The position numbers were made by a program, and so were the translations under genes. Of a stretch of 64,000 nucleotides of DNA, positions 3,742 through 49,972 are shown one piece after another. Each line of letters opens with the position of its first letter. The first letter of the stretch is position 1. The DNA lies in assembly GCA_963556145.1 (NCBI GenBank), contig OY744471.1:1543590-1607589 (forward strand). The letters are read 5' to 3'. The DNA comes from Hygrocybe punicea. Taxonomy: Eukaryota > Basidiomycota > Agaricomycetes > Agaricales > Hygrophoraceae. The notes below the pieces were generated by a model. The model had not been told where the DNA came from. It made no database searches and saw only the letters and a list, made by a program, of their open reading frames with translations.

Positions 3742-6700
3742 ATGTCATCCGCTCACGGGCACAAACACACCGGTTCTATGAGCCAGAACCACAAAGCTCA
3801 GCTTGCTAATGCTTATAACGAACTCGGAAAGGAACTCTCGTCTACGAAAGTAAAAGTTGTTGGAAATTATACCCTGGGAAAGGTCATCGGAGAAGGTTGG
3901 GTTCATTCATCCTATTCATTCCCCACCGGGGCGTGCAAAAATAAAACTTGATCTTCCCTCATAATGCCAGGCACTTACGGAAAGGTGCGACTGGGAACAC
4001 ACCGTTTAACATCCACTCGCGTCGCCGTCAAGCAAATACCTAAAGCAGTCTCTTCCTCCTTGACCCGCGAGATTCACCATCACCGCCAACTCCATCACCC
4101 TCACGTCACACAAATGTATGAAGTCCTCGCCACAGAATCTTCCATCTGGATAGTCACCGAACTCTGTTGTGGTGGAGAACTGTTCGACTATCTCGCCGAA
4201 AAAGGCCGTCTCGGGGAGGAGGAAACCAGAATCCTCTTTGGTCAGTTGTGCCTTGCTGTTGCCTATCTTCACGAAATGGGTATAGTCCATCGTGATTTGA
4301 AACTGGAGAACATCTTGCTGGACGAACGATGTCGAATCAAACTTGGAGATTTTGGCTTTACGCGCGAATTCGAGCGAGGCTCTTTCATGGAAACCTTCTG
4401 CGGAACCACCGGCTATGCGTCACCTGAAATGCTTCAAGGCAAGAAGTACCAGGGCCCAGGTATGTGGATACTCTTGTTGTACACGTTTCCTATCCCTAAA
4501 TCATTCATCCAGAGGTCGACGTCTGGTCTCTGGGCGTTATTTTATATTGTCTACTTACTGGAACACTACCTTTCGACGATGACGATGAAGGTGTTATGCG
4601 CAACAAAATCATCAAAGGAGACTTCGAAGATCCAGAGTGGCTGTCGGCCGGTACCCATGATCAGTCCTTATTCTCGAATGTAAAACTTATAATTTCTTTT
4701 TGTCCAGATTCTCGTGACTTGATACAGAAAATTCTTCAAAAAGATCCTGCTAGTCGCCTCACCATCCGACAAATCCTTTCTCATGCCTGGTTTGTTACTC
4801 CTCCCAATCCCCCAACCCAACAATCCACTCCACCTCAGCATGTTTCTCTAGCACCTTCACCCGAACCTTTCCAGCTACCTTCCTTGGAGCGTTCCTCTGA
4901 TATATCTCCCTTATCTCCATCCACCTCCTCTATCGTCCCTGCTTTCTCGGAGTTTAATGTCTCGACCCCAGCCGCTATGGACGATATCACTCATACCACA
5001 AAGCCAAACGGCGTTGCTGCACACTGCAATTCGAGCGAGGCCACTCTTACCAAGACAGAAGAAACATACGAAGAGATTCAAAGTTGGATTGGTCAACCCA
5101 TAGCCGAGAAGCCGTCTTCCCAACTGCCAGATGCATCAGACGAGGACCTTACTCTGGATGGCTCGTCTTTGTCTCATCTGCATTCCCGCCCTACCTCCGG
5201 GCCGAAGCCACCACCACCATACTCGGTCCGAACGCCTGTTCGAACAAAGCGTCGTTCAGTCTCCTCCAACCTCTCCGACCCCGCTTCTCCCACAGCTGAA
5301 AAATTTCTCCCGCCTCTTCCTTATCAAGACTTTGCATCTCTGCTCAGCACCCCTGCTCCTATCATATTTTCCACACCCCTCGAACGTAATCTACTCACCA
5401 GTCTCAGCACGCTTGGGTTTGACACAGCTCAGATCGTCCATTCTGTGCTCACCGACGCATGCGATGCGTCTGGTGCAGTATGGTGGATGTTAAAACGGAA
5501 GGCGGAGAAAAAGTCTCTCGAAGCTGGAGAGAGCAAGGTGACCCAAGAGACGTCCGACCAGGTTCCTTCACACAAGGATAGTAGTAGTCACTCGGAATGG
5601 GGCAGGCGTGGAGTATCGGTGCAAACCGATGTTGCGTCTTTACATTCCCAGGTCTTGAGTGCGACTCGCTCTGCCCCCCAACTCGCCTTCCTCCCTCCCA
5701 CTCCGACTCTTCCCCGTCCTGAGACTCCTCCGAAATCTCGATCATCTACCCAGCCGTTGTTGTCACCGTCACCGGGTTCTTCGTCTCGCTCTCATCCATC
5801 CACGCCAGCTGGGAGTTTAAGGGACAAAGACGGATCGAAGGGTAGGCGAGACGGCAAGGTGAGGTCGGGCAGTGTAAGCATTATGCAACGGGCAACTACC
5901 GCATTAGAGGCAGCAGGTCTCGTTAGAAAGCGGTCGACAGAGGCAGTACGCGACGATAGAGAGAAGGAGAAGGAGCGGGAGAGGGAGAGGGAGAAATCCA
6001 AAGAGAGCGAGAGGAGGGTTACAAGTGGCGAAGAACCAAGAAGTTCCCATGGTAGTGGTTCTTCTAGACTGACTAAATCTACATATTCAAGGTCTGCCAG
6101 GGACCATGCAGCGCCTTCTACACCCCCCTCGGAGCTACAGCACTCGCAAACTCAAGTTGGTTCTCCGTGGGTTATGACTGAAGCCCATCATTCGCCACCA
6201 AATGCACCCGCCCCGACGCCCGCCAATTCCCCTATTCCTTCTCGTTCCGGTCTTAGGGACAATGCTGGCAAGACAACAGGCACCCGTCATCGGGCGAGTC
6301 TGCTGACGGCATTTCGTTTGTGGTTCAACGATGACCGAAAAGGGAAGCGTAAAGAAACCAGCCAGCCTCCTGCAAGCGGTAGTGCGCGGGGTCCGGTTCA
6401 CGGTCGTCCGAATTCTGGTATTGGGACGGCCAAGCGGAGAATCAGTGGTTCCGCCAGCCACTTTGCTTCACGAAAAGTCGGGCATAAAGCGCATCGGGCA
6501 TCGGTATCGTCTCGTCGCTCGAGCAGCGCCAACTCAAAGCGCTCCTCGGCGGCATCTGCTCAGATAATCCTACTCGATCCTCCTCATATAATCGAACAGT
6601 TACCGACACGACGATCAATCGGAAGTCATACCCCAAACTCTGAGCGAGGGGAATTTTCGTCTCGACCTTCTTCAGTACGGAGCTTCTCCATGCAACGTCA

Positions 6701-7619
6701 TCGGAAGTCACCTTCTGCTAGCTCTGCCGGGTCTGCACATTTTCGCACGGCATCCCCAATGCACAAGTATCATAAAAGGACCGGATCTGGCTCGTCGACC
6801 AGGGTGGTGCGTCAAATACAGCCGGCACACAATTCTAGTGCAAAACACACCCGGTCGAATTCTACTTCGTCGTCGATTCACACACCGGCTTCCTCACGGC
6901 CCGCATCCTTCTACGAACCTTCTGAAAGTGATGTACCAAGAACCGTTTCGCCTTTCAAGACGCCCACGAGACGTTCGTTTGATGAGAGCCGTAAGCCAAC
7001 CCATGGGAGCAATACAACTTTTGTGGCCCAGAAGAGGCAGGCGCCGTTCATGAGCCCCGGAAGTCATCTCCACGGCAACTCGGTTGGGCGATCAAGCTGG
7101 AAGAAGTCTTGGGGCCTGGAGCCCCCCGGTTGGCAATCAAGGACTGCCCATGTACCCATCGAGGTCCTTGCCATTTCCCCCGCTGTAGATGCGCAGAGTG
7201 GGATACGAGACGTCTTCTCGGGGAGACCATCCCTCAATCTAGGCGACGAGAGCGATTGGGTAGATGAAGACGACGATATCCCAGCATTTGCGGGAGGGTT
7301 GGGGCAGGTGGCTGCATCGGTTCCTCATTCTTCCTCATTTGGACACCAGGTTCCAGAACCCACGATTTCGCTATCTCCTGCGCCTAGAGGACATCGCGCC
7401 GGAAAGCGCATCAACAGGAACGTTGGAATTGTGCCTGCGATCAGTACAAGCAGGCAAAAGTCAGCTCACCCCATTGTTGACCGAGTCTCGCCTATTCTAG
7501 CAGAAAATAATTATGAAACTTCTGAATTACGGGGAGGAAGGAGACAACTTCCATCTGGTCGTTCTGGTCCTGCTTTTCGACACGCTATTCAAGAAGAAGA
7601 TGAAGGGGAGGAGGAGTGA
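3742..7619 (+). CDS. CAMK-type serine/threonine kinase (Kin4/Hsl1-like) with long Ser-rich tail
   Basis: Four exons (3742-3895, 3971-4459, 4513-4650, 4708-7619) join to 3693 bp, 1230 residues. The third intron (57 bp) is a multiple of three and would be read through by a naive ORF call. Kinase motifs appear in order: Gly loop GEGTYGKV (split by intron 1), ATP-site Lys in VAVKQI, catalytic loop HRDLKLEN, DFG, the activation segment ending GYASPEML, then VDVWSLGVILYCLLTGTLPF. After the kinase domain (about residues 40-300) a segment NLLTSLSTLGFDTAQIV resembles the UBA-like domain of the MARK/CAMKL group. The remaining roughly 700 residues are Ser/Pro/Arg-rich and probably disordered, ending in an acidic stretch (EEDEGEEE). 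The size and layout suit a cell-cycle or polarity kinase such as Kin4 or Hsl1/Gin4; the exact subfamily is an inference. Confidence 0.85.
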
Positions 7620-7925: not shown

Positions 7926-10900
7926 TTATGAATTACTCACTCTCAAACGACCCAGGTTGTGAACAATGGCGACATTGACGACAGTCCTGAGCTTTCGCCT
8001 GATGTTTGTTTTATTCATCGTTAATTGATAACTCCCGGAGCAGTGGCAGTATCGCGAGACGTTATCCGACTGGATTTGTTTACACTTTGCACATTTTAGA
8101 TCTTGCTGTGCGAATGTACGTTCCAGACCGTGTAGCATCTCGATCAAGGTCAACTCAATGACCAGACGGTCGTACTCTCCGCCGCAGGATGAGCAAAGCC
8201 ATCGAGGAGTCATCTCAATATTATTCGGGAGGAGTTCCGGGTCTCGGCAAAAATCGAAGTCCCGAAGGCCATCGCAATGGCGACATGGTACGTTGGAGAG
8301 TTTGAGTGGTTCGCAGGGATTGCGGAACACTGCGTCACTCGCGAATTCCTTGATGCCTACAAGCTCTAGCAGGTTTCGTTTTAGAAGGCCAATTTCGACT
8401 TGGTATTCCTTCGCCAAGACGAAAACAGCACAGACGAATTTCACAAATTCGAGAGCCGGGTTAGAGAGGTGTAGATAGGAACCAGGTAGGAGTGGGAAGT
8501 CGAAGTCCGCGACTATCTCATCGTGCATGATTGCATCCTTGTGTCCTTCCTGGATCTTGGCAACGATTTTTAAAAGTTTTCTGGTAAGGCGACGAGCAAT
8601 GAAATCTTGGATTGCCTCTATTTCCTTTGTCTTTCCTGTGTCACGTTGTGTGGCGTCTGGAGTACTTCTCTGGAGAACTCGTAGAGGGATGCGCGAAACC
8701 TGGTTGGATTTCTGTCTCGTTGTGAAAAGTTCAACGATGAAGAACTGAACCACGGCGTGGAACTCGCCCTGAATAGATTGAGGAAGGAAACGTTGAATAT
8801 TCCAGTTCATTTCCATAGATAGGACATTGGGTGGTTCAATTGCTAGAGCGTCCTCGCACACGATTGCACCCATATTGGTTTGGTCCATGAAAAGAAGGAA
8901 ATCATAGAATCGATCGGTATTCAAGTAAATGTGTTGAAAGAGTTCATGGGATGTGACGGCAGTGGTAATATAGGTCGCATATGCATGTGCCGTACCGGGA
9001 GGCTTCGACGTAGCTAGCAATATTCGACTGAAGTCGGCGTATACCACATGGGATCCCAGTCGTTTGAACTCAGCCAATAGCTGAATGAAGGTCTTGCGCA
9101 TAAGGCCATGGATGAAGCGGTGAATACTTGGGTCGTACAAGTGCGATGCGCTCGAGCTGATCCACCGCCAAAAGTGATCAATTGCCAGAGTCGCCGGACT
9201 TGTAAAGTTTCCTCGAATTTTGTCAAGGAGCCAAACCTTGACCATGGTCTTCAAAATTCCAAAAGTCTGAGCGGAAACGTTTGACTCCCCCAATGTGACA
9301 TCCCGTTGAATGTCAGCGTTTTTATACTCGTCCAAAGTACGAGAGACAGAATCGAAAGCTGTAGCCCCTCCGCTCCCCTCCAGCTCATTTACCATTGCAG
9401 AGTGCAGGACAGAGTTAACAGAAAGATTGCGAACAGCAATTTCCAGACAAACGTTAGGATAACAGCCTGGGGAGATAAATTCGGTGTTAGGAAAGTCGTC
9501 TGCAAGGCCTCTGTCATTTTCGGCGCCACCCAGGTCTGGACGCTCTCCAGGAGACCACCATAGTATCATGTCCTGTTGAACCAAACGGCGGGCGAAGCTG
9601 ATATCGGATAGGACTAGTGGTTGATCGCCATCAACATGTCCCACCGGTACATCATAATAATCCGCAAGGGAAATCAAACGATCGAGCCAGGCGCCCATGG
9701 ATAAGTAACGGTTAAGCATTTTTTGTGCAACGTGCGACTGCCATGGAAAGACATCTAATGTGTGAGGTGTCTTTAGTTTAGACATTGACAGGACCGGAAA
9801 TTTTGCAAGGTTTGGAACAAGTGCTTCGAAATAGTTCTGCTCCCTGCACGATGATAACACGAGTGTGTATGACATATTTTCGACCAAACCGAGCTCCCGT
9901 GAAATAGCCTTTAGCGCTGTCGCAACGCTACCGTGGTATGCTGGATGAGCGAATTCACGGGACTTTGGATAGCTGACCGATGTGTATGATCCATATGTTG
10001 CCAATCGTTGTTGTCGGAGGTCAGCGTAGAGCTCTGAAAGTCGAGTAATGGCTTGGCGCCTTGGCGCTGGATCTACCTGATGGAGCTTTACTGGACCATT
10101 TGGGAAGAAGAGGGCAAAGACATGGAGTGGTGCGTTCCCAGAGCAGGCGTGATATAAGAAAATGTATTTGCCAGCTTTGCCGCCGTCTAGGTACCGTTGA
10201 CGCGACAAAGCTGTGCCAGTGCGGTCGAGTTGGTTCAAATCCAAACCCGAGGTCTGAGCCCGGTTCAAGGTCATACTGGAATCCTCGGCGTTGCATGTCT
10301 TCCCTAGCTTGAGCAAACCTCGAACAACCAAAGGAACCTGATTACAATTAATGAGAATGTGGGGAATCTACTTAAATAAGCCCGAACCTGTAGCTCAAAT
10401 ACACCATCAACATTCGGATCGTTCGTTAGGTCAATGAAATGTTCTTGAATTTCTTGATACGTGTCTTCGCGGACAATAATCCTATACAAGTTAGCGCAAT
10501 GACGGTCTCGTGGAAGATTTCTGACAACTTTATCACAAGAATAAATGTCAGTCCGAAAAAGGTCCTCACGAGGCGTTCTTGTATGGATATAAAATTCTCG
10601 AGGAATACGGAGGGTGACGGAGACAAGTTCCGACTCGACCGAGAGCCAAAGCGTAAAACGTCCCGCAATCTTACTGGGGCGTATTTGTACAACGTCCCAG
10701 CGATGATGAGTTCGCAACCGCGCCTCCCGAAACATGGCTGGAACAAGTCCAGATGAAGACCCAGAACGGGCGGCTCTTCTCAGCTTCCAACGTGGTCTGA
10801 TCGCTTTTATCCAAGCCGAATAGTTAACAGAGGGATCTGGCAATGGCGTAAGTGTGTCAACTATAGGTTCTTTCGTAGTCGCATCTTTCGAATGGGATAT

Positions 10901-39251: not shown

Positions 39252-40097
<846 letters not shown>

Positions 40098-40214
40098 TTA
40101 CGTCAAGGGCGGTTGTTGTTTGAGGTTCAAGTCGTGGAACAAACAAGTACTTACGAAAAAGGATATGTGGATCGCGGCAATCGCCGTTACAGTCTACTAT
40201 CACATGCCCACCTT

Positions 40215-40688
40215 TTAACAATTGAACAATCTAGTAATACTATGAGAAAATATGAGACAAGGAAAGGAAGATGCACAAGACAGGCTCTTACAAACATGCG
40301 ATATAAAGCTTGTACTGCTGAAGATATTGTATTTCTACAGTCACGTACTGGTCGTTCATCAGTGAAACATAAAGATTTTAGACAAGTATCAATAATTACT
40401 GCTTTAAATATTCACAAAGATGAGATCAATCACTTGGGGTCATTGAGAATTTCTAAAGAGACTGGTCAACCTCTGGTTGATTTTTATTCTGATGATTCAG
40501 TAGTTTCCAAAGATAGAAAAAAGGGAAAGTCTCAAACTGCAACTCGCAAGCACCACACTGGTCCACACATTATCAGATAATATTCATAAAGTTCTGTGGA
40601 ATCAACCTCATAGTTCAAACTCAAAATGCATCCCTGGGAAGCTTTCTTTGTATATTGGAATGCTTGTCATGATCCAGAATAATAGTGC
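40215..40688 (+). pseudogene. Pif1-like helicase of a basidiomycete transposon, piece 1 of 3
   Basis: Pieces 1 (40215-40688), 2 (45809-46471) and 3 (48995-49808) are one interrupted gene. Piece 1 has YKACTAEDIVFLQSRTGR, SIITALNIHKDEINHLGS, ETGQPLVDFYSDDS and, after a frameshift near 40575, IPGKLSLYIGMLVMIQNN. These are the C-terminal helicase motifs of a Pif1-related helicase family common in mushroom genomes. The N-terminal ATPase part with Walker A and B is absent, so the relic is 5'-truncated. It is interrupted at 40688 by the hAT element, with an 8-bp target duplication. Confidence 0.8.
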
Positions 40689-40843
40689 TAGTGTTGCCAC
40701 GGCTCGGTCCGGCTCGGCTCGGCTACGGCTAACAACGGCTAACCCATATATGGGTTGTTAGCCGGACCGGACCGTTGTGGAACGGCTAAACCATGGTTAG
40801 CCGTCCAAAAAAGGAAATTAATAGCGGACAACCACCAAGCACA

Positions 40844-42835
40844 TCAGGACTTTCCACATTTAGTCGGGATCTAAAGTGATTTCTAAAGTTAGCACCAAAA
40901 TATAATCTTTAGATTTACATTTAGGCCTAGCCTAAATATTGAATTTAAGTCACAAATAAATGTATATCTAAATTATTTATTTATTTTCATCTTTAGGTTA
41001 TTCTTGTAATCAAAATAATTATCAGATCTATATTGTAAGGGGAAAGTATAATTTAGTTCCAAGTTTACTCAAATTTCTAGTCCAAATTTAGGCATCACCT
41101 AAAGGCAGGCCAAAATTAAAACTTTCGGTAGCATTAAAATAATAAATTTAATAATTATCAAAATGTAAGATTTTCGGCAGCTATTTAAATTCAAAGTTGT
41201 TGTTAGATCTAAAGCTATTGCCCGCGCCATTGCCCGCTCGTCGCCCGCCCGTCGCCCACCCATTGCCCACCCATCTCCCAATCTTACCTCACGAGCCCAG
41301 CTCCAACGTCAATTGACATGGTGGTGGGGTTCGTGAGGTGATGACAGAGGTAGGGGGAGAGGCAGGTGGGGGAGATGGCAGGGGCGACAAGGGTGTACGG
41401 GGGCACGACAGAATGAGAGCGAGATGGCGGGGGCACGATAGGATGGGTGGGTGACGAGCGTGGGTGATGAGGGTGTGGGAGATGGCGGGGGCACGATAGG
41501 ATGGGAGGGCGACGAGGGTGTAGGTGATGAGGTGTGGGAGATGGCGTGGGGGACGAGGGAGTGGGAGGGTGAGGAGATGGCGTGGGCGTGGGTGACAAGG
41601 GTGTGGCGTGGGCGACAAGGGTGTGGATGACGAGGGTGTGGGAGATGGCGTGGGGTGTGGGCGAGGGAGGTGATGGCGGAGGTGGCTTGGCGGGAGATGG
41701 CGTTGGCGATGAGGGTGAGGGAGATGGCGTGGACATGGGTGAGGGAGATGGCGGGGGCACGATGGGAGGGCGACGAGAGGGTGTGGGAGATTGCGTGGTG
41801 ATGGGATGGGATGGTGGGGAGATGGCGTGGGTGTGGACGAGGGAGATGGCGCGGGCATGGCCATGGGGGATCCAATTTTGGATGGGTTAGATGTGGGCGA
41901 CGAGAGCGTGGGCGACGAGAGTGTGGCGATGAGAGCGTGGGCGATGAGAGCGTGGCGATGGGAGCGTGGGCGATGAGAGTGTCGCGTGTGCGACGAGGGT
42001 GCGGCGTGGGCGACAAGGGTGTGGGAGATGGCGAGTGTGAGGAGAGATGGCGACGACGACGAGGGAGATGGGAGATGGCGTGGGTGTGGACGAGGGAGAT
42101 GATGGGGAGGGCGGAGGTGTGGGCGACGGCTTGGCAGGAAATCGAGGGTGGGAAATGGCGGCGAGGGCGAGGGAGATGGCGTGGGGTGTGGGAGATCGTC
42201 ATACTTGGGCAGGGGAGATGCCGGGGATGGGATGAGCGGGAGCGGGAGAGATGGCGAGATGGCGTCACGGTGGGTGTGAGGTCGAAAAAAAAAAATTGAT
42301 TGGTTTTGTCGACGTCGGAGCTGGGTTCAGGTCATGATTGGGAGGTGGGCGACGGGTGGGCGATGGGTGGGTGATGGGTGGGCGATGGGTGGACGACGGG
42401 TGGGCGATGGGTGGACGACGGGTGGGCGATGGGTGGACGACGGGTGGGCGATTGCGCGGGCAATAGCTTTAGTTCTGATTGAAATTTGGAATGTTGATAA
42501 CCGCCGAAATTTTTTTTTTGATAACTATTAAATCCATTATTTTAGTCACACTGAAAGTTTAAATTTTGGCCTGCCTTTGGATGATACCTAAATTTAGACT
42601 AGCAAATTTGAGTAAACTTGTAGCGAAATTCTGTTTTCCTTCCACAATCTAGAACAGGTCATCATTTTAATTGTAAAACTAGTCTAAAGATGAAACTAAA
42701 TAATACTTTAGATGTACATTTATTTGTGACTTAAATTCAATATTTAGGCTAGGCCTAAATGTAAATCTAAAAATTATATTTTTCCGCTCACTTTAGAAAC
42801 CACTTTAGACCCCAACTAAATGTTGGAACTCCTGA
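40844..42835. repeat. 2-kb fold-back element nested in the hAT, arms of about 400 bp
   Basis: The AT-rich left arm (40844-about 41250) is matched in inverted orientation by the right arm (about 42450-42835) over nearly its whole length. Shared strings include ACATTTAGGCCTAGCCTAAA, CAAATAAATGTA, AAGTTTACTCAAATTT and AAAGGCAGGCCAAAATT, with scattered mismatches of perhaps 15-20 percent. The ends share TCAGGA..TTCC. Between the arms lies G-rich tandem DNA on the plus strand (41284-42450), with units such as GTGGGCGATGAGAGCGTGG and a clear 22-bp array (GGGCGATGGGTGGACGACGG) at 42350-42450. No coding capacity is credible. The layout resembles Foldback-type elements; a target duplication was not found. 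Confidence 0.8.
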
Positions 42836-43214
42836 GGTGAAGGTCACCAATCTCACCACACAAACATGCGGAGCACACCAGTGACACCACGCCAACAGCC
42901 ACAGCCACACCAGCTTGCGACAACGCAGGCCAACCCAAAACAAAGGCCAACGGCGACCAGCAGAGGGGCGAGGAATGAAGCGGCAACGTGCCCACTCCCG
43001 CTATGTCTTTTCTTGAATCTTTGTTTTTTTTTTACTACCAACTTATTTCTGATTACAGCACAAATTATCTTGAGGCAACAGCCGCCCGGACAGCAGCAGC
43101 AATGACCAATGACCACGGCGACGGCAAACAGCAGCAGTGGCAACGACGGCAACAGCACTACATCAAATGAGGTGACTGTCATTTTGCTGTGATTTACTTC
43201 CCCAGTTCATTGGG

Positions 43215-45070
43215 CGGCTTCTGTTGTCTCCACCCATCGCTTTCGACTGCCCACTGCATGCCGCACCTCATTTGGACTGATAACTTCTGGCCGGGGCTGC
43301 CCAATCGCGCGTCCCTTCACTTTGCACCCCCCCACCTCCTCCAAGCTTTGTTCGGCGGTTCCTGCTGCTGCCTCCCACTGATATCGAGCACACAAGGCAT
43401 CTTTGAACCCCCCGCACCTCGTTTCACATCAAAATGATAGGCCGGTGCCAGCCAATCGCGCGCGCCATCACTTTGCCCCCCCCACCTCCTCCAAGTTTTT
43501 TTGGGCGGTTCCTGCTGCTTCCCCCTAGCAATTTCGACTGCCCATAGCACCTCTTAATCCCCTGCACCTCGTTTGGCTCGAAAATGACAGGCTGGGGCTG
43601 CCCAATCGCCCATGCCATCACATTGTCCCCCCCAGCACCCCCAAGTTGTTTTCGGCGGTTCCTGCACCTTCCACCCGACGATTTCTACCACCCACGAGAT
43701 GGCACAATGCCCCGCACCTCGTTTGGCCGGAAATCGACTGGCTGGGGCTTCCAAATCGCCCGTGTCATCACATTGTCCCCCACAGCAGCCCCCAGTTGTT
43801 TTCGGCGGTTCCTGCACCTTCCACCCGCCGATTTCGACCACCCACGACATGTTACAATCCCCTGCACCTCGTATGGGCCGAAAACGACAGTCTGGGGCTA
43901 CCCAATAACCCACGCCATCATATTGTCCCCCTCACCCCCCCAAGTTTTTTTTGGTGATTCCTGCACCTTCCACCCGCCGATTTCAACCATCCATGGCACC
44001 TTTCAAGCCCCCGCACCTCGCTTGGCCCGAAAACGACAGGCTGGGGCCTCCCAATCGCCCACGCCATCAATGTGTCCCACACCCACCCCCCAATTTTTTT
44101 TCGGTGGTTCCTGCTCCTTCCACTGGCCGATTTCGACCACCCACGACATGGCACAACCCCCCGCACCTCGTTCGGCCGGAAATTGACAGGCTGGGGCTAC
44201 CCAATCGCCCATGCCATCACGTTGTCCACCCCACCCACCCCCAAATTTCTTTCGGCGGTTCCTGCTGTTTCCACCCACCGATTTCGACCACCCACTGCAT
44301 GGTACAACCCCCCACTCCTCCTTCGGCCTGAAAATGACAGCCCGGGGCTGCCCAATCACTTGCGCCGTCACTTTGCCCCCCAACCTCAACCACCTTTTTT
44401 GCATTCGTTCCTGCTGCTTCCACCCGCCAATTTCGACCACCCATGGCATGGCACAGGCCCCTGCACCTCGTTCGGCATGAAAACGACAGCCCGGGGCTGC
44501 CCAGCCACCTGCGCCATCACTTTGCCCATCCACCCCTCCAAGTTTTCTTTGGCGGTTCCTGGTGCTTCCACCTGCCGATTTCGACCACCCATGACATGAT
44601 CCAACCCCCCGCACCTCGTTTAGCCCGAAAATGACAGGTTGGAGCTTCCCAATCGCCCACGCCATCAATTTGTCCCCCACCCCCCCCCCCAAGTTTTTTC
44701 AGTGGTTCCTGCACCTTCCACCCGCTGATTTCGACCACCCACGACATGGTACAACCCTGCGCACCTCGTTTAGCCCGCAAACGACAGGTTGGGGCTTCCC
44801 AATCGCGTGCACCATCAATTTGTCCCCCACCCCCCTGCTAAGTTTTTTCGGCAGTTCCTGCACCTTCCACCTGCCGATTTCGACCACCCATGGCATGGTA
44901 CAACCCTGCGCACCTCGTTTAGCCCACAAACGACAGGCTGGCGCTTCCCAATCGCCCGTGCCATCAATTTGTCCCCCCACCCCCCCCCCAAGTTTTTTCG
45001 GTGGTTCCTGCACCTTCCAGCCGCTGATTTCGACCACCCACGACATGATCCAACCCCCCACACCTCATAT
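43215..45070. repeat. Satellite array, about 12-13 units of roughly 149 bp
   Basis: Units recur with landmarks GCACCTCGTTTGG, CTGGGGCTGCCCAATCGCC, a pyrimidine tract of C and T, TTCGGCGGTTCCTGC and CGATTTCGACCACCCA. The first landmark falls near 43263, 43413, 43563, 43713, 43862, 44012, 44162, 44312, 44462, 44610, 44760, 44908 and 45058, giving a period of about 149-150 bp. Units differ by a few substitutions. The long frames on both strands here are translations of the repeat and not genes. The unit has no known function; it lies inside the hAT. Confidence 0.9.
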
Positions 45071-45204
45071 GACAACACCGACACTGACAACTGCTGTCAT
45101 GACGACAACGACCATGACGACAATCGTTCTGCAAATTTACTACCATGTCTCGCCTCCCTCGACGTCTGCGCATCCGACCCCGGCGCATGGCGGCTTCTCC
45201 CTCC

Positions 45205-45464
45205 TTTGCTCATCTTGGAGGCGAGGACTTTTACAACCGCGTTATCGACCATCTTGTCAAGGCGTACAAGAAGAAGACTGATGTGTCGCTGAACTTGAGC
45301 GCAATGGGCAAGCTCAAGCGCGAGGTCGAGAAGGCTAAGCGGATGTTGTCAGCAGTCGACGAGGATCGAAATCGAGTCGTTCAAGGACGGCAATGACTTT
45401 TCGGAAATTCTTACACGGGCCAAGTTTGAGGCTTAATATGGATCTATTCAGGAAGACAATGAAA
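45205..45464 (+). pseudogene. Captured HSP70 fragment inside the hAT
   Basis: The frame reads [38 protein letters not shown], then after a frameshift near 45362 [20 protein letters not shown] and NMDLFRKTMK, interrupted by a stop. This is the end of the ATPase domain and the start of the substrate-binding region of an HSP70, as judged from the LGGEDF and [11 protein letters not shown] motifs. Only about 85 codons are present, without introns in the piece seen. It sits between the satellite array and the right end of the hAT, and was probably picked up from the host genome. Confidence 0.85.
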
Positions 45465-45808
45465 TAGGAATTTTTCATATTTTTCATATACATGTACATG
45501 TACATAGGTAGGCTATGTGGAGATACGCAAAAAGAAAAAGAAACACCTGAAAACCTTGTGAACTGTGGCTGTACATGTTCGTGAGGTATGGGAGGCAGCA
45601 GAGGGTTATCCAAGTGAAGTTGAAGCCAGCAAAAAGGCTGGAAACCTAAATTTCCTAATTTGGATATTTGGTAACGGCTAATAACGGCTAGCCGTGGCTA
45701 AGCCGAGGTTTAACCGTTAGCTGAGTGAATGGCTCGGCTCGGCTAATTATCGGTCCGGCTCCAACGGCTAACGGTTCCGGACCGAGCTGTAGCAACACTA
45801 AATAGTGC

Positions 45809-46471
45809 AACTGAGCTATGCATTAGTAAGCAGCATTACCAAGGTCAAGAAGGCACCATGCATAGCTGGCAGTCAGCAAAAGGTCTACAAGGTCAGAGAG
45901 TGTTGGATACATTGTTTTTAATGTTACTTAACCCTCCACAATAGTGTTGCCTGAACTCAGCTGGTCAGGAAAAGCTGAGTTGAGGCAACACTACTCCACA
46001 AGCTGTGAAATTAAATAGACTTCCTGAGAATGTTGTGCCAATATCAAAAACAAGTGTTGCTGTAGACTGTTCACTACCAGATGATTCATCTATTACAATA
46101 TCACACACTCAGGTGGAGGTACTTCCCAATTCTTCAATGACAGATTATTCTTCACAAGGGAAGACAAGGCCCAATAATCCAGTTGATCTAAATAATAGCC
46201 AATCTCATCAATCATATTACAAAGCATTATCACATAGTGCTTCTGCACTAGGTACTGTCATTTTGCAAGGATTTGATGCCAGAAAGATAACAGGTGGTGC
46301 ATCTGGTGCTTTACATCAGGAATTCCATGAACTGGAAATTGTAGATGAAATACTCAGATTGAGATATAAAGGCAAGTTACCAAGTTCTGTTCCTGGTGAT
46401 TGCAGAAATTCTCTGATAGATTCCTTTAGATTGTGGAAAGGCAAGCATTATGTTCCAGAAAATGTGCACAA
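45809..46471 (+). pseudogene. Pif1-like helicase relic, piece 2 of 3
   Basis: The frame resumes after the hAT as TELCISKQHYQGQEGTM and SAKGLQGQRVLDTLFLMLL, is cut by the 52-bp MITE, then runs on as RLPENVVPISKT, TDYSSQGKTRPNNPVDLN, SYYKALSHSASALGTVILQG and FDARKITGGASGALHQEFHE. YSSQGKT is the late Pif1/RecD-type motif, here SQGKT. The piece stays open to 46471, where the 2.5-kb TIR element begins. Confidence 0.85.
45942..45993. mobile_element. 52-bp hAT-type micro-MITE with 8-bp target duplication
   Basis: Two 21-bp arms, one starting TAGTGTTGCCTGAACTCAGC and its complement with a single mismatch, flank a 10-bp loop. The 8 bp CTCCACAA precedes (45934-45941) and follows (45994-46001) the element exactly. 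The end TAGTGTTGCC is shared with the 5.1-kb hAT 150 bp to the left, so the same transposase could mobilise both. Removal of the element and one duplication rejoins the helicase frame (NPPQ to AVKLN). Confidence 0.92.
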
Positions 46472-46703
46472 CATCAGCAAAACCCGGTTCGGGCCATAGC
46501 ATTTGCCCAAATTCCATAGTAGGCATAGCAAAGTCATAGCAGCCATAGCAAACCTTTGATTACATAGCACTTGATAGCACTATGCAGCTCTGTGTGCCCA
46601 CTACATATTCCTCTAAAAATCACACTGATACTACACAGGTCTCCAAATCCTAGGCTCAATACATCTCACATTCGAGTTCACGAAATTCTTGTAAGTCCTA
46701 TCT

Positions 46704-47890
46704 TTGTTCATGTTTGGCACAGTTCACTTTTTTTCCGTTTTATTTCGCGATGTTGCCCCCACTTTACCTTTCCCCACCGTTTTAGACCTTTGCTATAAAC
46801 TTGGGTCCAAATCCTACTTTCTCTCCCTCTTCCACACTCTACCCCTCTCTAAAGGTGTCTGCAGGAGACTGTCCATATTCGGCAACAATGACCCAGTCCT
46901 CCCCCCTCCCCCACCCTCGGCGGATCTGCGAGCCCTCAAAGTTTACGCAAGCAGTTGGCGACGCACCTTGCAAAGCTCCGGATCAACCTCAGACGACGAC
47001 TTTTCCAAATCCCTTCCGCTTCCATGCCGGAGATTCGCATTATCCCACCTCTCCAGCGATTCCTCGCTCAGCTCCCCACCCTTCTTCCCTTACAACAACA
47101 ACAACAACACTGGCTCGCTAATCACGCGCAGCCGGTCCGCACCATCCCTACGATCTTCACCGCACGACTTGCAAATGGCAACATCTCGTAACCGCGCACC
47201 CGTCCTCCGCGTGTTCGTCCCATGCTCGGAGCTCACCGAGCACGCCATCTTAGAGTGCGAGGAGCAGCTCCTGGACGCCAGTCTGTGGGACACCTTTCCA
47301 CCGGGGACCTCATCTGCAACCTCGGATTTCTCCCACCCCCTTCCTCTCAGTCCTCCGACGATCTGACCGAGCCAGGACAGTGGAAGACGTGCCAGCAACA
47401 GCAACAACAACGTGGGTGGTGGAGACGGTGGCTCGTCTTCAATGGGTACGGCCTCGTGCCATTCTCCCCACCCGAACCACCTCCCTTCGAAGAACCGTTG
47501 ACACTCCCCTCTCCATTCTACTATGCCCACGTTCTCCTGTTATCCGCGAACCCGCGATACACCCTTCGCATTCCTGCCGCCTACCAGTGCGGCGGCAGCG
47601 GCAGCAGTGTCCCCCGGCTAACCCTTGCACACGCCTCAACAAAAATCTACAGTCCAAACTCCTCCACCAGGTATGCGTTGGTGAAAAAGTACGTGTGGAC
47701 CAGGCAGGTGTACAGGTATCGCCGTGAGGCCGGGTTGGGCGTGGGATGGATGGGGGAATGGATATTGGAGGGTGAGGGCACGAGAGAGGGGGGGCAGGTC
47801 TTGTTGGACTATTTTGGTGGATCCGAGATGCGGAGGGAATGGGAGCTCATGTGGGAGAAGAGTGGTGGGGGTCGTATTTGGTTAAGGTGA
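46704..47890 (+). pseudogene. Captured fragment of an unidentified host gene
   Basis: Two long frames belong together. Frame one contains ASSWRRTLQSSGSTSDDDF and APVLRVFVPCSELTEHAILE, then CEEQLLDASLWD; a one-base shift near 47290 leads into HLSTGDLICNLGFLPPP, WLVFNGYGLVPFSPPEPPPF, TLPSPFYYAHVLL and GEWILEGEGTREGGQVLLDY. The second frame runs open to 47890. The high coding quality and the one-base break suggest a recently captured and then disabled piece of a fungal gene. I recall similar proteins in mushrooms but cannot name the family. Confidence 0.6.
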
Positions 47891-47897
47891 GGAGGCT

Positions 47898-48709
47898 TTG
47901 CTTTTTTTTACTGCTGGGTACTCGGATTACTCAAGTAGTATGCCTGGCACCGTCCCGAGTCCTCCTGCGAGCATTCCGGAGGAGCCACCAGCACAGGGCC
48001 AGGGCCACCCGCATACTCAGGCGGTTGCCGTAAAACTCCAGGGCGGGAGTGATCTGACAAGCCAATACACGGGTTGCATCCCCCCAGCGCTGCTCTTCTC
48101 TAGCACAGGTTCGACGCCTGTGAGCATGCCGACGACGTCCCGCGTGCCCTCTCCCGCAGCCCACTCTTCCACCCAAGATGCAAACACGCACACATGCACA
48201 TCCGCCATCTGGGACTTCGCGGGCAAGCACCACGCTGTCTCGTCCTGTGTCCTCCTGAACAAGCCTTTCCGCTGCCCTAAGCCGAACTGCAGCAAGAGCT
48301 ACAAGCAAGCGAACGGCCCCATTTTACCGTAATTACCCGCTGCCAGTGGGCACAGTGACGCCGGTACGGAAGGGAACGTGGATGCGACTGGGTTCACAGA
48401 GCACGAGCTGCGAGAGGTGGCGCGTGAGGCGGAACGCCGGTTGCGCCCATTTGCTTGTGGCGTAGGTGACTGTCAGCGACGGTACAAGAATATGAACGGA
48501 TTGCGGTACCATTATCAGCATTCGAGCGAACATGGCGCTCACGGGCTTGCCCTGCTTGCGAGCGGATTGCACGACTGTCTGAGTGGGGGAAAGAGCGGTG
48601 TCCTGGTTGGGGGGAGCACGCAGAGTTCCCAGCATGCGAGCAGGCAGGGAAGTCACGATCATATGGGGTGGAAGGTTGTTACTGTTTCGGCGCTCAATAC
48701 GATGCTATA
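47898..48709 (+). pseudogene. Captured Sfp1-like C2H2 zinc-finger gene fragment
   Basis: The plus-strand frame contains a Ser/Pro-rich region, then KPFRCPKPNCSKSYKQANG, the start of the split zinc finger of fungal Sfp1-like transcription factors. It breaks before the zinc-binding histidines and meets a stop at 48332. A second frame resumes with ELREVAREAERRLRPFACG, then CQRRYKNMNGLRYHYQHSSE and HGLALLASG, an intact C2H2 finger in the family's second position. So finger 1 is missing its His pair through a deletion or frame change, while finger 2 is whole. The piece lies inside the TIR element, same strand as the fragment before it. Confidence 0.8.
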
Positions 48710-48994
48710 GTATCTGTTGTCGCTATACAAATCTATTACCTTTTTGAGTTTTCAACATTGCTGAATGTGAGAAAGTATCAATGAACCAGCAGTGGTATGG
48801 CAGGGATTCCAGTACATTCTGGGCCATCTATAAAGTACTCTATAGAGGCCAGCCAAACTATGTAGTAATTCATAGGAGCGTGCAAAGCTAGGTAGTGCTG
48901 TAAATTATAAGACCTTGCTATGGCTGCTATGGGTGCTATGACATCTATGGAATTGCTATATATGGCTTGGTAGCGGAACCGGGTTTTGCTGATG

Positions 48995-49808
48995 AATGCC
49001 ACTCAATGGAATATGTCTGATCCACATATTCCTGGTCAAGAGGATAATATTCAATGGCAAGTTCTAGGGAAAAGTCAAAAAGTCCAAAAAGATGTTACTT
49101 TCAAGTCAAAATATGTCCCTGCTTGTGGAAGTTCACTAGCATTGTTTTGTCAAAATTCTACTATTAAGAGGAAAATAAGTAGATCTTCAGTTGCCCCTCA
49201 AAGGAAGAAATTGAAAATAAAACATATCATTAATGATGCTTTATTGACCTCTATGAACATTCCTGTTGATACACTCTGGAGCAACAATAGCTGTGCATAT
49301 GACTCTATAATATCCATTTTATTTAACATCTGACAGGATAATAACATTGCTTCGTCTAATTATTTTGGAATTTTAAATTCTAAATTTCTTGGTGTCTTGG
49401 TAGCTGGATTTTCAAGATATTCTGATGGTGAATGCTCTTTAGAAGAAGTGCATGATCATCTAAGGTACTTTCTGTGTCAGCAGCATTCACTGAATAACTT
49501 CCCATGGGGAGCATTTACAAGTGTTAATACTTTATTGGATACACTACTACAAACAGAAATCCCCATTCTTTCATCTTGTATTTCTTGCCCTCAACATCAT
49601 CCTGTGCCCAGACAGTGGGAAGCAGCATACAATTGCCTTATAGATGTTGGAAGAATTGACTTTGAATCTATTCAAGATGAAATTGATCTCTTTGTAATTT
49701 CTCTTGCTTCAAAGTGTACTATCTGTAATGACTTCCTACTTTGAAAATTCACTTTTGTAAATGCCCCTCAGTTACTTGCCTTTGCCACATCTGCTTCCAC
49801 AACTTGTG
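48995..49808 (+). pseudogene. Pif1-like helicase relic, piece 3 of 3, C-terminal domain
   Basis: After the 2.5-kb insertion the frame continues as NATQWNMSDPHIPGQEDNIQ, then LWSNNSCAYDSIISILFNI, SRYSDGECSLEEVHDHLRY, FPWGAFTSVNTLLDTLLQT and SKCTICNDFLL. The NSCAYDS segment corresponds to the WSCAYDA-like motif of the extra C-terminal domain attached to this helicase family, which resembles a cysteine-protease-like fold by motif only. In-frame stops at 49331 and 49742 show decay. The relic ends near 49808, where a short repeat begins. Confidence 0.75.
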
Positions 49809-49824
49809 CTAGAGGGCTGTTGTA

Positions 49825-49972
49825 GTAGTGGGTAGTGCCCCACTACGACTAGTAGATCATGTGACTGTTCCGTAGGATTACCTTTTGTGTAGATAGCTTA
49901 TGAGACTTCAGCTTGTCACACCACCTGAGACCACTGAGGCACCCAGTAGGGACCCTAGTCCCTACTACACCA
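49825..49972. repeat. Possible MITE, about 148 bp
   Basis: The ends are similar inverted sequences, TGTAGTAGTGGG on the left and the complement of CCCTACTACA on the right. Inside are ATCATGTGAC and CCGTAGGATTAC. Closely related strings (TCACGTGA, CGTAGGACTAC, CTACTACACC) recur in inverted order at 54900-54990 inside the second hAT, suggesting two members of one small family. No target duplication was identified. Confidence 0.45.

Follow-up and report, generated by a model that had tools for sequence, protein, structure and literature searches.

The 64-kb window analysed here, which lies on contig C39 of the Hygrocybe punicea genome (92.2 Mb in 42 contigs), contains between positions 40232 and 49803 a truncated fragment of a Helitron transposon into which, with high probability, three other transposons have inserted independently. 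These are a hAT-type element of 5112 bp, a 52-bp palindromic miniature inverted-repeat transposable element (MITE) and a 2523-bp element of the PlavakaB type with terminal inverted repeats (TIRs). A fold-back element is in turn inserted in the hAT-type element, and the hAT-type and PlavakaB-type elements belong to families that appear to capture host genes. An earlier note on this DNA had described a Pif1-like helicase relic into which a hAT, a MITE and a TIR element had later inserted, and empty helicase copies bear this out at every site. It had missed that two of the inserts carry pieces of host genes.

Judged by its relatives elsewhere in the genome, the interrupted gene is a partial RepHel gene from a Helitron. 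The related locus L059 holds the domains DUF6570 (3e-41), Helitron_like_N (1.1e-28) and PIF1 (1.6e-10) in this order (Pfam), so that the helicase would be the later part of RepHel; the relic pieces of the window, in which only this later part is present, give no Pfam match by themselves. All pieces are on the plus strand. Piece 1 (40232–40688) matches the later helicase part of the relative L004, piece 2a (45809–45933) is recognised by alignment with other copies, piece 2b (46002–46471) ends in the bases AA (46470–46471), and piece 3 (48995–49803) begins with AA and ends within the family's carboxy-terminal region. Two relic pieces used as queries each gave at least 40 matches, the window included, among the best 40 candidates each. 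The refuting comparisons proposed in the earlier note, which its main reading survives, were made at the DNA level.

Each insert is enclosed by a duplication of its target. The hAT-type element (40689–45800) is flanked by AATAGTGC at 40681–40688 and 45801–45808, and the MITE (45942–45993) by CTCCACAA at 45934–45941 and 45994–46001; all four copies were placed by alignment, the left copy of each pair also by joined-flank probes. The 2523-bp element (46472–48994) has AA on either side, contributed by the end of piece 2b and the start of piece 3. With both strands searched, AATAGTGC is found in the window only at 40681 and 45801, while CTCCACAA occurs on the plus strand only at 45934 and 45994 and has four occurrences on the minus strand. 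This search and the alignment agree with the coordinates, sizes and duplications (8, 8 and 2 bp) given in the earlier note. An alignment of the window that included seven other loci shows single copies of AATAGTGC (or AATGGTGC), CTCCACAA and AA at the points where the window has a pair enclosing an insert.

Joined-flank probes of 160 bp across the hAT, MITE and 2523-bp junctions were compared with 20 distinct Helitron copies and scored by script. The empty junction is spanned in 18 of the 20 copies at the hAT site and in 19 at each of the other two sites; the twentieth copy at the site of the 2523-bp element, rearranged and located on C41, is empty in locus L011, which makes 20 of 20. At the MITE site and at the 2523-bp site the junction is ungapped in 18 of 19 copies each; at the hAT site it aligns with 12 gap positions, which correspond to 12 additional bases in the window. 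The number of independent witnesses is smaller than the number of copies, as L013 to L015 are near-identical and L018 and L019 yield the same or almost the same values in the comparisons. In L028, the MITE probe matches from its base 54 onward only. In L026 and L028 the MITE site is bordered on its left, at no more than about 5 and 30 bases, by other DNA, and their hAT sites are unreadable; both were rejected as copies sharing the MITE insert, because the adjoining DNA lacks MITE ends and differs between the two. Among the 20 copies, none with a readable site shares any of the inserts.

The empty sites exclude chance as the origin of the target duplications, and the two observations together establish cut-and-paste insertion of non-autonomous elements. 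As read from the sequence, the Helitron preceded the three inserts and the hAT-type element preceded its fold-back. To this extent the order of events is readable, as had been claimed; among the hAT-type element, the MITE and the 2523-bp element the sequence gives no order. The nest, previously counted as four layers, has a depth of three levels (Helitron, hAT-type element, fold-back).

The further claim that excision of the inserts rejoins the helicase holds for the nucleotide order of the family, which is restored, but the relic carries other lesions and is truncated at both ends. The alignment reveals deletions of 9, 4 and 15 bases and additions of 10 and 12 bases, and a TGA stop codon is present where L004 has TGG. 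The additions (10 bases at 40545–40566 and 12 bases at 45818–45840) both repeat adjoining bases with filler between, and they may be footprints left by the excision of two additional inserts. The idea that piece 1 is a mosaic (identity of 86% versus 95%) was dropped, since the alignment shows mostly indels.

The boundaries of the relic, near 40232 and at 49803, are both internal to RepHel of its relatives. Its right edge meets the Helitron family's own 3' end in inverted orientation, identical in 16 of 16 bases (49802–49817, minus strand, GCCCTCTAGCACAAGT). Positions 49802–49870 form another Helitron end, on the minus strand, for which a hairpin, GTAGTGGG..CCCACTAC, is predicted. A Helitron is expected to end 3' in CTRR, to have a subterminal hairpin and to make no target duplication; the common 3' end of the family is ..CTCTAGCACAAGT, which puts the CTAG 7 bases inside, and a hairpin is predicted. 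The 443 bp missing from the right part of the relic (L059:8237-8679) have no match on C39 among the 50 matches listed (best 40 of 126 candidates); the relic is therefore taken as genuinely cut, and its continuation further to the right on C39 was rejected. At the left edge, a 36-base repeat (40194–40229, plus strand) is located, which is also present at C36:1872046, C2:6231874 and C35:1395885, with 26 of its bases near C36:1875270. On C36, the 36-base copy at 1872046 (plus strand) faces the 26-base copy near 1875270 (minus strand), resembling the ends of a 3.2-kb element.

The hAT-type element measures 5112 bp including the fold-back, and its 24-nt ends are 92% complementary. The end sequences of the hAT-type, Plavaka-type and EnSpm-like elements are TAGTGTTGCCACGGCTCGG, CATCAGCAAAACC and CACCTCAGGAGTTC, respectively. 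With up to 2 mismatches allowed, the genome has 274 occurrences of ends of this hAT type, versus none for a control pattern. Of six copies elsewhere in which both ends are present, five have an exact 8-bp duplication, and two share flanks. The interior contains a tandem array (43261–45066) of 12 copies of a 150-bp unit. No transposase family was found by Pfam in ten frames of the element, fold-back included, the sole match being a sub-threshold one to TOM6p.

The EnSpm-like fold-back (40840–42839, 2000 bp) has CAC..GTG ends and arms made up of complementary blocks of 76–88%, the longest of 147 nt. Its place inside the hAT-type element had been recognised before; we add its target duplication, AAG at 40837–40839 and 42840–42842. 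In 13 of 14 other hAT copies the site is empty and reads ..CCACCAAGGTCACC.. with one AAG; two of the 13 share flanks, and the fourteenth (L081) is unreadable here, as it lacks the stretch holding the site. The fold-back is therefore private to the window element among the copies inspected. Its entry may have preceded or followed the jump of this hAT-type element into the Helitron. Other near-full-length fold-backs are present at 88–97% identity, and the CAC..GTG ends with a 3-bp duplication are seen in the window and in 10 copies; the duplication is exact in 8 of the 10 by script and in the remaining two after a one-base shift of the edge by eye. Termini and duplication resemble those given for fungal EnSpm elements in a section of PMC12730594.

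The MITE is a near-perfect palindrome with hAT-like ends, TAGTGTTGCC..GGCAACACTA. Eight copies within 3 mismatches are present elsewhere, six of them with an exact 8-bp duplication, and position 12 is C in all eight versus G in the window copy. Since both it and the hAT-type element begin with TAGTGTTGCC, have 8-bp duplications and lie about 140 bp apart, the MITE might be a deletion derivative left by local movement of the hAT-type element, the two being one event. This is improbable: sister copies of the MITE are found at eight sites elsewhere, and although its first ten bases are those of the hAT-type element, its arms diverge from the hAT ends beyond them.

The 2523-bp element ends in CATCAGCAAAACCCGG..CCGGGTTTTGCTGATG, and it and its relatives have the 5'-CATCA..TGATG-3' termini of PlavakaB; an exact 2-bp duplication is seen in 12 of the 14 such elements for which both ends are available. 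Inside, the 2523-bp element is pieced together from parts of two resident genes, all in plus orientation. After a 5' end of 316 bases follow two pieces of D1, an F-box-type gene on C34: 46788–46850 (element bases 317–379, 93.7% identity) and 46844–47910 (bases 373–1439, 94.1%), with 718 donor bases skipped at the junction and 7 bases shared. One base separates these from two pieces of D2, an SFP1-like zinc-finger gene on C41: 47912–48321 (bases 1441–1850, 94.0%) and 48317–48668 (bases 1846–2197, 95.7%). Here 148 donor bases are skipped, with a 5-base overlap of which 4 match the donor's first side. The 3' end of the element follows, overlapping the last piece by 2 bases. The longer frames scanned with Pfam contain no transposase family and no known domain.

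Five other full-length copies of the 2523-bp element are 98.4–98.7% identical to that of the window and have different flanks. Each of the six has 11–17 private substitutions (11 of 2426 positions in the window copy, 10 of these being C>T or G>A), a pattern suggestive of a burst in which the copies are of similar age. Copies elsewhere with different flanks, most with target duplications of their own, were likewise found for each of the inserts, a check that the earlier note had proposed. Other elements share the ends of the 2523-bp element. L038 contains scrambled D2 pieces (1026–1403 at 90.7%, 333–895 at 88.8% and 1950–2415 at 83.3%), and L061, a 7.3-kb PlavakaB-type element (C40:4511480-4518900), contains similar ones at 82–91%. 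The latter additionally holds several other long open frames of unassigned origin. The join of the SFP1-like piece to the 3' terminus is common to L038, L061 and window positions 48317–48994. Five further elements with the same ends have another common interior, of 921–976 bp. The Plavaka transposase family PF18759 has 161 matches in the genome and is found in none of 14 control genomes.

The hAT-type element, too, carries part of a host gene. Positions 45209–45463 (plus strand) are 91.4% identical to C8:2505236-2505503 (locus L112), a piece of the BiP/Kar2 gene, and the best match of the window frame among solved structures is BiP (GRP78; 4.7e-12). A search with this piece gave at least 41 matches including the window and the resident gene (best 40 of 58 candidates). 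Two sister elements with the same kind of ends hold other parts: L113 two parts of the gene (95.2% and 87.9%), and L114 an aligned part of 672 bp (87.8%). Read by eye, L114 has an exact 8-bp duplication and L113 one with a mismatch. The alignment, also read by eye, indicates that the BiP part of L114 retains an intron (GTAAGT..CAG), so the capture looks like an uptake of DNA and not of a spliced copy.

High identity between elements and genes would equally be expected if the host genes had been built from transposons, the gene-like stretches being the source rather than captures. The donors make this very unlikely. D1 is an open frame of 513 aa with 381 related proteins at E <= 0.001 (best identity 55%), and D2 one of 614 aa with 478 (best 59%; best named relative, from Serpula, 53%), whereas the copies in the elements are truncated, have frameshifts and are assembled from pieces. 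The named relatives come from fungi that we take to be Agaricomycetes, and none is close; the designations F-box-type and SFP1-like are taken from their names and not from Pfam, scans of the nest pieces and of both donors having given no Pfam match. From donor to element, the pieces of 1067, 410 and 352 bases have 56, 16 and 15 differences; C>T or G>A changes make up 34, 10 and 11 of these, and 21, 8 and 6 differences are located in CpG. In all, 55 of 87 differences are of this C>T or G>A kind, versus 22 in the reverse sense. BiP, moreover, is a general chaperone gene. A fixed composite moving as one unit, to which the position of the inserts within 1.9 kb of relic and the multicopy nature of every insert family might point, finds no support in this genome, as the readable Helitron copies lack the inserts (18, 19 and 20 of 20, with L011 the twentieth) and sister copies of the inserts have unrelated flanks.

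Several points weigh against independent insertions of gene-capturing elements into a truncated Helitron. Both edges of the relic abut ends of other repeats, and its truncation is without explanation. An exact duplication is missing in one of six hAT, two of 14 Plavaka-type and two of eight MITE copies. No autonomous partner with the same ends came to light, no search of the genome for hAT or EnSpm transposases having been made, and the superfamily labels follow termini and duplication length. The D2 piece joined to the 3' terminus is 83% identical to the donor in L038 and 82% in L061 versus 95.7% in the window, which is hard to fit with one capture and one clock. Finally, L110, the sole intact Plavaka locus examined, was rejected as the autonomous partner of the 2523-bp element, as it lacks these ends.

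Under the preferred reading, a truncated Helitron fragment near a calmodulin gene would have received the hAT-type element (8 bp), the 52-bp hAT-type MITE (8 bp) and the PlavakaB-type element (2 bp) in independent cut-and-paste events, and the EnSpm-like fold-back (3 bp) would have entered the hAT-type element, of which only the window copy among those examined carries it. As no transposase is recognised in the four inserts, they were presumably mobilised by enzymes that related elements in other parts of the genome encode. Earlier copies of the PlavakaB-type and hAT-type elements would have acquired host-gene pieces in the form of DNA, joined with overlaps that are short or absent, before they multiplied; silencing and C-to-T decay may have followed. 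Capture may have occurred by fork switching or gap filling, proposed for animal Pack-TIRs in part of PMC8277862; alternatively, neighbouring elements may have been joined to each other, the mechanism put forward for Pack-TYPE elements of plants in parts of PMC8903248 and PMC13317346. Both fit, and the short overlaps lead us to lean towards fork switching or gap filling.

The nest lies next to a calmodulin gene on the minus strand (39356–39985), in which the frame 39533–39826 matches calmodulins (best 4.8e-71). The first recognisable exon stretch of this gene, reaching to 39985, is about 200–250 bp from the nest. Elsewhere in the window, ordinary host genes are represented by a frame with a protein-kinase domain (4503–7616) and by the carboxy-terminal region of DNA polymerase epsilon (DUF1744 and zinc fingers; 7929–10367, minus strand). 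From 50494 to at least 51300 there is the edge of a high-copy repeat, with at least 39 other matches at 94–95% (best 40 of 1171 candidates). Scans of the window with Rfam and for tRNAs (bacterial code) gave no matches.

Nested transposon insertions have long been known in plants and fungi. As in those cases, successive insertions into an older element have left readable target duplications; the differences here are that three superfamily types are found in or around one short Helitron fragment and that up to 20 empty sites are available in the same genome. For Pleurotus Helitrons, part of PMC4289320 describes a RepHel with Helitron-like and PIF1 domains and an end CT(A/T)G; the present family has the same kind of fungal RepHel and ends in GCCCTCTAGCACAAGT, not exactly CT(A/T)G. 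PlavakaB elements, according to the section of PMC12730594 concerned with them, have 5'-CATCA..TGATG-3' ends and 2- or 3-bp duplications, and some carry a TET/JBP dioxygenase gene. The 2523-bp element shares the ends and the 2-bp duplication, and an extra gene is a feature of some PlavakaB; its interior, in contrast, is DNA of two resident host genes, and its scanned frames are without known domain.

Plant Pack-TYPE elements and animal Pack-TIRs are portrayed, in the corresponding parts of PMC8903248 and PMC8277862, as non-autonomous, multicopy TIR elements that contain pieces of host genes, those of plants including pieces from several loci as well. In the present elements, too, host-gene pieces lie between transposon ends with the donor genes still resident, and the 2523-bp element moved along with its captured pieces, as its six full-length copies with differing flanks show. 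Here, however, the host is a mushroom-type fungus, the ends are of Plavaka type and the interior is a two-gene patchwork with overlaps of 0–7 bases. The uptake of histone H3 by hAT elements of Dothideomycetes (reported in part of PMC6710886) is similar in that a fungal hAT multiplies a copy of a housekeeping gene; it differs in that our elements hold BiP pieces, belong to a basidiomycete and have sister elements with different pieces. In the single literature library searched, we found no paper on Plavaka elements with pieces of resident host genes, and an element of Plavaka type that has captured two host genes would be a new variation on Pack-TIR elements.

We consider it moderately likely that the Plavaka lineage, related to CACTA elements, is a serial gene-capturing system and a fungal counterpart of Pack-CACTA, in which several elements took up the SFP1-like gene in scrambled form, one lineage acquired a second gene fused to it and this chimera multiplied as one unit, the hAT family with BiP being a parallel case. 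The nest itself is ordinary biology, unusually well documented; greater interest attaches to the Plavaka-type and hAT families with their captured gene pieces. As an internally controlled record of four insertions, the nest can serve to check annotation tools and the rules for target duplications (2 bp for Plavaka-type, 3 bp for fungal EnSpm-type and 8 bp for hAT-type elements). The resident donors and many sister elements make the capture mechanism testable in a fungus. Two kinds of TIR elements in one basidiomycete harbour and spread pieces of conserved host genes (for a chaperone, a transcription factor and an F-box-type protein), and such captured copies can mislead gene annotation and might feed small-RNA silencing of the donor.

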